A stretch of DNA of 64,000 nucleotides from Ectopseudomonas chengduensis (GTDB lineage Bacteria; Pseudomonadota; Gammaproteobacteria; Pseudomonadales; Pseudomonadaceae), in NCBI RefSeq assembly GCF_900102635.1, contig NZ_FMZQ01000002.1:248001-312000 (forward strand), given 5' to 3'. This document shows, in pieces, positions 33,777-35,476 of this stretch. Made by a program: the position numbers and the translations under genes. Numbering within the stretch: the stretch's first letter is position 1; the number at the start of each line of letters is the position of its first letter. The notes under the pieces were generated by a model, which was not told the origin of the DNA, searched no databases, and saw only the letters and a program-made list of their open reading frames with translations.

Positions 33777-33844
33777 TATGGCAAAAGGCTTACACGGCCT
33801 GGCGGCAACCACCACTGTTGCCATTGCGAGCCGATCTCTAATCT
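33777..33844 (+). promoter_or_regulatory. promoter and GacA-like upstream element, RNA copy 1
   Basis: TATGGC-N6-CTTACA (33777-33794) keeps the right half of the GacA upstream sequence TGTAAG-N6-CTTACA; the left half is poor. TAATCT (33839-33844) is the -10, exactly 50 bases after CTTACA, with a weak TTGCCA at 33818. The same spacing recurs in copy 2 although the DNA between has diverged, which argues for selection on these two boxes. Confidence 0.55.
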
Positions 33845-33849
33845 ACACA

Positions 33850-33959
33850 CATCCCCTGCAGCGACTGATCGCTGAGGATCAAGGACGATGACCAAGCCAG
33901 GAATGGCTACCGACAGGATGTCGGATGGTTGGGAAGAAACCCGCTTCGGCGGGTTTTTT
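33850..33959 (+). ncRNA. RsmX/CsrB-type small RNA candidate, copy 1
   Basis: About 110 nt from a start just after the TAATCT -10 to an intrinsic terminator. It carries six GGA motifs. Two are displayed in hairpin loops: AGCCA-GGAA-TGGCT (33895-33908) and CCGAC-AGGAT-GTCGG (33910-33924), the geometry preferred by RsmA/CsrA. No coding frame is plausible. The size, GGA density, terminator and upstream CTTACA box are those of RsmX/Y/Z RNAs, which titrate RsmA and are switched on by GacS/GacA. Copy 2 lies 1517 bp away. Family membership is inferred; exact ends are estimated. Confidence 0.7.
33937..33959 (+). terminator. intrinsic terminator of RNA copy 1
   Basis: AAACCCGC-TTCG-GCGGGTTT with six Ts following the GC part: an 8-bp stem with a stable UUCG tetraloop. 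Confidence 0.9.
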
Positions 33960-34047
33960 GTTGCCTGCGATTTTTGGCAACAAGCGCTCGGGCCTCGTAA
34001 GCGACGTCAAAAATTGTTCCCGACGGTTCCTGGTTGTCCACAAATGC

Positions 34048-35235
34048 TCAGCCCAATGTCAGGTGATTGCGACCGGCCTGTTTGGCCTGATAGAGCAAGT
34101 CGTCGACTTGGCGATACAGCTCTTCGCTGCTTTCGCCGTCCATGGCCAGGCGTGCGCCCATGCTGACGGTGAGGTGGTCGGCCGTCGGTGAGGCGGCGTG
34201 GGCAATGTTCAGGGTGGCCAAACCGCTACGTAGCGCCTCTCCGAGTGTTTGCAGCTGTTCAGCATCGCAGCCATACAGCAGCAGGGCGAACTCTTCTCCG
34301 CCTAAACGTACTGCCATGTCCATGGGGCGACGAGCGAAATTTTGCAGCAGTCGACCTACCCGGCGCAGAGCATCGTCGCCGGCCTGATGTCCGTAGTGAT
34401 CGTTGAAACGCTTGAAATGATCGATGTCGAGCATCAGTAGCGCAACCTTGGCTGACTCGCGGTTACCCTGGCGCAGAACGAGATCCAGATGCTGAGTGAA
34501 GCTGCGGCGGTTGTGCAGAGCGGTCAGCGGATCGTGGTTGGCTTGCCAGTCCAGCAATTGCAGCAGCAGAAATTGCTCGCGCTGAGTGTGATCCCTGACA
34601 TAGGCACCCATTGCACAGATCAGCAGTGCCAAGCTGAAAATGAAGCACAAGCGCAGGTGATCGACGTGTTGCGTCTCCGATAACAGCCACAGCCCAGGCG
34701 CCACGACCAGCGGCAGGCTGGCCGCCGCCAGCAGCAGATTGCCGCGAAACGACAGACCGAGCGGGAAGAACAGTGTGATGGCCATCAGTAACAGCACGCT
34801 GTTGGAGATTGGGACGCTCAGATTCTGGTAAAAAATGATCGTCAGCGTGGTGCCCAGCACCAGGCTCAGCAGGGTGACGGTGACCACCTGCGGGCCATAG
34901 TGCTTACGGCTGCCGTTGAGCAGTAACAGGGCGAGCAGGCAGAGCGTGAAGATGATCGAGCCGCGCACCAATAGCAGGCCCCAGAGCGCTGCTGGATAGT
35001 CTGGGAAGCGTTGCCACAGATCCAGGCGCAGTGCATCGACAAGGCTGAAAATCATCCATATGCCGAGCCCCAGGAGCACGGCGATTTTCTGATAGCGCGC
35101 CTGTACCTTGCTGATGTACTGGTGATATTCCTGTTCCAGCGGCTGGCTGAAACGCAAGAAACGAAAACCGCGGCGTAACTGTTCGGCGTAGCGGTTTTCC
35201 GGGATTGCACGGAGAGCTTCCGGGGCTGAATGCAT
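34048..35235 (-). CDS. membrane diguanylate cyclase between two small RNAs
   Basis: 395 aa. The N-terminal region has about six TM helices (residues 40-220), followed by a GGDEF domain with RLGGEEFALLLYG near residue 325. An intact I-site RPMD lies five residues before the signature, so it should be active and feedback-inhibited. The start (AAGGAG, five-base spacing) is 59 bp from the upstream box of RNA copy 2, which is transcribed away from it. The GGA in its ribosome site could itself be an RsmA target, which is speculation. Confidence 0.88.
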   Translation of the reverse strand: MHSAPEALRAIPENRYAEQLRRGFRFLRFSQPLEQEYHQYISKVQARYQKIAVLLGLGIWMIFSLVDALRLDLWQRFPDYPAALWGLLLVRGSIIFTLCLLALLLLNGSRKHYGPQVVTVTLLSLVLGTTLTIIFYQNLSVPISNSVLLLMAITLFFPLGLSFRGNLLLAAASLPLVVAPGLWLLSETQHVDHLRLCFIFSLALLICAMGAYVRDHTQREQFLLLQLLDWQANHDPLTALHNRRSFTQHLDLVLRQGNRESAKVALLMLDIDHFKRFNDHYGHQAGDDALRRVGRLLQNFARRPMDMAVRLGGEEFALLLYGCDAEQLQTLGEALRSGLATLNIAHAASPTADHLTVSMGARLAMDGESSEELYRQVDDLLYQAKQAGRNHLTLG

Positions 35236-35293
35236 GACGACTCCTTGTTTCACTGAGCATAAGGTGCCCGGCGGGATCGTCAATCAATAACGC

Positions 35294-35361
35294 TATGGCA
35301 AATGTCTTACACGCTCTGGAGCCAACCGCTGCTATTGCTACTCAGGCACGATCATTAATCT
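35294..35361 (+). promoter_or_regulatory. promoter and GacA-like upstream element, RNA copy 2
   Basis: TATGGC-N6-CTTACA (35294-35311) and TAATCT (35356-35361) repeat the layout of copy 1, with the identical 50-base offset and a TTGCTA at 35335. The divergent cyclase gene starts 59 bp away, so the same site might influence it. Confidence 0.55.
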
Positions 35362-35366
35362 AGACA

Positions 35367-35476
35367 CATCCCCTGCAGCGACGGATCGCTGAGGATCAAG
35401 GACGATGACCAAGCCAGGATTGGCTACCGACAGGATGTCGGATGGTTGGGAAGAAACCCGCTTAGGCGGGTTTTTT
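35367..35476 (+). ncRNA. RsmX/CsrB-type small RNA candidate, copy 2
   Basis: Aligned without gaps to copy 1 at an offset of 1517 bp. From ACACATCCCC through the terminator and the next 15 or so bases there are only three differences. One creates an extra GGA (seven in total), one changes the first hairpin loop from GGAA to GGAT while keeping its stem, and one lies in the terminator loop. Hairpins AGCCA-GGAT-TGGCT (35412-35425) and CCGAC-AGGAT-GTCGG (35427-35441) are kept. A recent duplication of an RsmA-sequestering RNA is the simplest reading. Confidence 0.7.
35454..35476 (+). terminator. intrinsic terminator of RNA copy 2
   Basis: AAACCCGC-TTAG-GCGGGTTT followed by Ts, the same stem as copy 1 with one loop substitution. 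Confidence 0.9.

Follow-up and report, generated by a model that had tools for sequence, protein, structure and literature searches.

The rsmX RNAs are catalogued in Rfam as RF02144, a family reportedly traced back to Moll et al. 2010. Multiple rsmX genes per genome are known in Pseudomonas, namely in P. mendocina ymp, P. stutzeri A1501 and P. syringae (as cited by PMC4950607), and PMC7911923 describes tandem rsmX-1/rsmX-2 pairs in P. brassicacearum NFM421, P. fluorescens F113 and P. stutzeri A1501. The same sources give the GacA site of P. brassicacearum rsmX as TATAGCGAAACGCTTACA, with the left half TATAGC (PMC7911923), and place a TGTAAG-N6-CTTACA site at -75 and -196 of P. aeruginosa rsmY and rsmZ (PMC4950607). 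An earlier note on the DNA analysed here, a 64-kb stretch of the Ectopseudomonas chengduensis genome (the window), had compared it with P. aeruginosa PAO1, known for RsmY and RsmZ only. PAO1 is not the right reference: the genome belongs close to P. chengduensis and P. composti, and multiple or tandem rsmX genes, those of P. mendocina ymp included, had already been published.

Two rsmX copies and their control regions

The locus consists of two rsmX copies (a and b) on the plus strand, and the space between them is occupied by a minus-strand gene for a GGDEF protein:

33777..33794, plus strand: GacA-type upstream activating sequence of copy a, TATGGC-AAAAGG-CTTACA
33839..33844, plus strand: -10-like TAATCT of copy a (sequence)
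33851..33959, plus strand: rsmX copy a (RF02144, 78.9 bits; 6 GGA)
33938..33959, plus strand: predicted intrinsic terminator of copy a (sequence, fold and Rfam alignment, in silico)
34048..35235, minus strand: diguanylate cyclase gene, 395 aa, GGDEF domain with GGEEF motif (Pfam PF00990, 162.6 bits)
35256..35283, minus strand: promoter-like TTGACG-16-TATGCT 5' of the cyclase gene, divergent from copy b (consensus scan)
35294..35311, plus strand: GacA-type upstream activating sequence of copy b, TATGGC-AAATGT-CTTACA
35356..35361, plus strand: -10-like TAATCT of copy b (sequence)
35368..35476, plus strand: rsmX copy b (RF02144, 79.0 bits; 7 GGA)
35455..35476, plus strand: predicted intrinsic terminator of copy b (sequence, fold and Rfam alignment, in silico)

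The two units are almost certainly paralogous rsmX genes of the Gac/Rsm pathway. This reading is based on family membership, conserved structure, upstream sites and the presence of the partner genes, all of which were observed here. Both copies exceed the RF02144 cut-off of 56 bits (E of about 7e-13 for the window) and are the sole matches over an Rfam cut-off within the 64-kb window; their alignments cover the full model, positions 1-114, including the hairpins and the terminator. That the units are chance GGA-rich repeats or belong to another RNA family is exceedingly improbable: rsmX is the best model of the Rfam clan at both sites, and nothing was found in favour of this alternative. With the rsmY model, copy b reaches just 25 bits, where the cut-off is 57. 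The Rfam search proposed in the earlier note thus favoured its assignment.

The units, described previously as two gapless-aligned elements 1517 bp apart with three differences, are indeed 109 nt each, offset by 1517 bp, with three mismatches in an ungapped alignment (unit positions 16, T/G; 53, A/T; and 97, C/A). Their extent of about 110 nt likewise stands, with the starts on the plus strand corrected to 33851 and 35368 by the Rfam match, and a recount agrees with the 6 and 7 GGA motifs reported. At least six GGA occur in 0.23% and at least seven in 0.07% of all 109-nt plus-strand segments of the 64-kb window, the units themselves counted in. Identity between the copies runs on for 16 bases 3' of the unit and then ends; 5' of the units, the GacA-type site, the -10 region and some intervening bases are common to both, the remainder having diverged.

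According to the Rfam consensus, each RNA would comprise a 5' hairpin, a small hairpin with the loop AAGGAC, a branched stem with two more GGA loops, and a terminator. Our manual reading of this structure gives three hairpin loops showing GGA in copy a and four in copy b, rather than the two per copy previously claimed. The 5' hairpin carries the loop ACGGAU in copy b and ACUGAU in copy a, and it is this change in copy a that accounts for 6 versus 7 GGA. The altered base lies at position 33866; the GGA of the 5' hairpin lost there is kept in the other 24 of 25 aligned rsmX genes (manual reading). The predicted folds are stable (-46.5 kcal/mol for copy a and -46.0 for copy b; z of -4.1 and -4.0), with none of 200 shuffles equally stable. 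The strong intrinsic terminators noticed earlier are seen in sequence, fold and Rfam alignment alike; a terminator scan gave other, overlapping stems, one at copy a and several at copy b. Both copies thereby combine, in silico, an RF02144 score over the cut-off, GGA in hairpin loops and a terminator ending the ~110-nt unit.

Pair counting lends modest support to a conserved structure. Among 24 distinct sequences from the rsmX alignment, 98.1% of 648 pair cells hold standard pairs, whereas sliding the partners by 1-3 columns leaves only 20.7-46.3% paired; the tested structure was taken from one of the aligned sequences, which gives it an advantage over the slid versions. Three pairs are changed on both sides (mean of 0.7 in shuffles, with 2 of 500 reaching 3), and a slide of +3 likewise yields three. 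The covariation score is 0.066 versus 0.053 in shuffles, none of the 500 reaching 0.066, and the nine further pair types show no excess over shuffles (mean 9.7; 500/500 with at least 9). Covariation is thin because the sequences are close.

The GacA-type site lies 56 nt ahead of the first Rfam-matched base in both copies. Its right half is perfect; the left half differs from TGTAAG and resembles that of the P. brassicacearum rsmX site. Elsewhere in the same genome, the rsmX next to gyrB has TGTGGC-N6-CTTACA and rsmY a perfect TGTAAG-N6-CTTACA; CTTACA is absent from the 110 nt upstream of rsmZ. The -10-like TAATCT is kept in 21 of 22 aligned rsmX rows of this locus, the exception (G369) reading TAGTCT. 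A simple sigma-70 consensus scan reported a promoter for neither rsmX copy.

The genome encodes the other components expected of a Gac/Rsm pathway. Three rsmX genes are above the cut-off, the pair and one adjoining gyrB, and with one rsmY and one rsmZ above their own Rfam cut-offs this makes five sponge-RNA genes in total. The partner genes are represented by a GacA/UvrY-family regulator (one over cut-off among 65 matches) and three CsrA-family proteins, two of which resemble ordinary RsmA/CsrA on manual reading. Together with the Rfam score, the GacA-type sites and the conserved structure, this complement bears out the earlier assignment to the RsmX class. The third CsrA-family protein (L171, C25:46474-46665) matches solved RsmN/RsmF with E of about 1e-8, and rsmN has been reported in P. 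mendocina too (PMC7366521). The third rsmX is located directly 3' of gyrB (C28:223067-223171; L003 1501-1605), and rsmX adjoins gyrB also in G063 and G028. A fourth rsmX-like match (C27:89380; 31.4 bits) is under the cut-off and poorly aligned in its middle, and is regarded as unproven. In P. composti LY1 (L078 8086-8151), we observed a match just over the cut-off to the TwoAYGGAY RNA (RF01731), which belongs to the Rfam clan of the Rsm RNAs.

By analogy with studied Pseudomonas, from which transcription, GacA dependence, protein binding and a dosage effect are extrapolated to this locus, phosphorylated GacA would bind TATGGC-N6-CTTACA and drive transcription of a 109-nt RNA ending at its own terminator. 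The GGA-bearing hairpins of this RNA would then bind RsmA/CsrA-family dimers, freeing target mRNAs from repression. It is plausible, as the earlier note suggested, that the tandem copies represent a dosage expansion of the Gac/Rsm switch.

The enclosed diguanylate cyclase gene

In a comparison of the cyclase at the protein level, P. chengduensis 402 (99%) and P. composti CCUG 59231 (89%) were the nearest named genomes; records very near the window's may be missing from that comparison. The consensus promoter scan of the region found two candidates, with 0.7 expected, and both promoter-like hexamers are readable in four of five cyclase leaders, the window's among them.

The position of the gene raises the question of whether the cyclase belongs to the same circuit, sharing the GacA-type site with the divergent copy b and being translated from an mRNA (leader CAAGGAG) that is an RsmA target relieved by RsmX. 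The GacA-type site of copy b is located shortly 5' of the promoter-like sequence of the cyclase, and CAAGGAG is found at the ribosome site of the cyclase leader in the window, G078 and L039, and as CAAGGAGC in G008. There is also a precedent, since Rsm proteins of P. putida repress translation of the CfcR cyclase via a CANGGANG site, according to PMC6849547. However, AGGAG is a common ribosome site, the L040 leader reads CTAGGAG and is without ANGGA, the G008 leader lacks the promoter-like hexamers, and in the folds of the leaders from five genomes we saw no convincing RsmA-type hairpin and no common hairpin with a GGA loop. We therefore consider such control of the cyclase quite improbable.

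The second copy in relatives

The locus was compared in 23 stretches from 19 genomes besides the window's record; among these, four (L164-L167) are other places of G000 (the window's genome), G113 and G078. These genomes were the best-ranked in a DNA search (398 genomes, 277 matching at 1e-10) and are not a random sample; a second search, of 293 relatives, gave 8 matches at 1e-60, the window's genome included, and gained no further genome. The order opgG-opgH-cytochrome b561-rsmX is found in the window and 17 of the 19 other genomes, and was not seen in the fetched stretches of L041 (P. fluvialis, cyclase 43%) and G381.

Three states of the locus can be distinguished. The rsmXa-cyclase-rsmXb arrangement is present in 4 of 18 loci (window, G078, L039 and L040), and one rsmX with no cyclase match in the stretch in 13 of 18 (G202, G063, G369, G248, G177, G303, G324, G327, G270, G064, G113, G012 and G255), among which the downstream genes (MFS, LysR) differ. 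At the G008 locus, a single rsmX is accompanied by a cyclase with 56% protein identity. Between this cyclase and the MFS gene, CTTACA precedes ATCCCC by 56 nt, a window-like spacing, and TAATCTACACACATCCCC is present as well. The G008 stretch (L157 4806-4999) retains an rsmX-like -10 stretch and site spacing, and its presumed transcribed part is without GGA. It gave no Rfam match up to E 0.5 and has no GGA past TAATCTACACACATCCCC, and its GacA site has a poor left half, GATGAT. The stretch resembles a second rsmX that has decayed, but may instead be a diverged RNA.

L040, a two-copy genome, is separate from the trio of the window, G078 and L039; a grouping of all four has a p-AU of 3.4e-40 on the joined gyrB and parE data. 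Its DNA identity to the window is 85.7% in the cyclase, 87.0% in cytochrome b561, 89.0% in MFS and 90.7% in opgH. The cyclase is thus somewhat more diverged than the neighbouring genes, a pattern more in keeping with old descent than with a recent transfer. Trees of cytochrome b561 and MFS have little resolution and carry no weight here.

The most informative relative is G202, a single-copy genome nearly identical to the window in gyrB and parE and its sister in the gyrB, parE and joined trees. In the gyrB and joined trees, L039 comes next and then G078, with weak support for the fork of G078 on gyrB alone (82/65); the parE tree does not resolve the order of L039 and G078. A grouping of the two-copy trio to the exclusion of G202 has a p-AU of 0.000107 on gyrB and 0.000297 on the joined data, and is rejected by both; on parE alone the value is 0.0543. 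Since the trio was chosen with the first gyrB tree already in view, these values are less strict than they seem. Given that G202 is nested among two-copy genomes, it most likely descended from a two-copy ancestor and probably lost the cyclase together with one rsmX copy.

Such a loss might have occurred by recombination between the rsmX copies acting as direct repeats, which would delete the cyclase and one rsmX and leave a single chimeric copy. This mechanism, which would add to the rsmX assignment rather than compete with it, is a serious possibility, although we judge it somewhat short of an even prospect. Besides the tree position of G202, it agrees with the G202 rsmX itself, which has the upstream flank of copy a, a body 1 of 109 bases off copy b, and the downstream flank of copy b, as expected if the two had recombined. 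The same flanks would, however, be seen with a single ancestral copy. Furthermore, G202 opgH is 94.5% like that of the window and groups elsewhere in the opgH tree, so that the cyclase might also have been lost when the region was replaced by that of a single-copy donor. G202 is the one clear case, and over the whole joined tree, where the fewest changes number three (G008 and G381 scored single-copy), the count does not separate older gains from losses.

Going further, the locus could be seen as a removable regulatory cassette, in which twin sponge-RNA repeats would couple loss of a cyclase, itself perhaps under the same GacA site and RsmA, to loss of one RsmX dose, with the decayed copy in G008 as another end state; we regard this as rather unlikely. 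With the pair taken as ordinary rsmX genes, what stands out is the cyclase gene between them, which a very close relative has apparently lost. The locus provides a clear added case of rsmX copy-number variation, and the window and G202 form a natural pair with nearly identical gyrB and parE that differs in rsmX dose and one cyclase gene. The effect of extra Rsm sponge copies is therefore testable by comparing close relatives.

Comparison with known rsmX systems

In a sample of the genus, 130 of 149 genomes have an rsmX match at E 0.001 and 89 of 149 have one over the cut-off; by hand count among the matches listed, at least 25 of 149, the window's included, carry a pair of rsmX genes over the cut-off on the same contig, within 10 kb of each other. 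Since several or tandem rsmX genes have been published and are frequent in this sample, the pair belongs to a known kind: several rsmX copies are ordinary for Pseudomonas, and the enclosed cyclase is the less ordinary part. The rsmX-cyclase-rsmX arrangement was not found in the literature searched, mostly at listing level, and a literature search on chengduensis and Gac returned nothing relevant.

As a member of RF02144, each copy shows the full-length match 1-114, the GGA hairpins, the terminator and the GacA-type site, but scores 79 bits, unlike the top genomes of the sample (110-126 bits), and copy a is without the GGA of the 5' loop. The presence of several rsmX genes in one genome is shared with P. 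mendocina ymp, P. stutzeri A1501 and P. syringae, according to citations in PMC4950607. The closest counterparts are the tandems of PMC7911923, which likewise consist of two rsmX with a GacA-type site. In those tandems, however, the copies are 75-81.5% identical and ~0.1 kb apart, whereas those described here are 97% identical and lie 1.4 kb apart around a cyclase gene.
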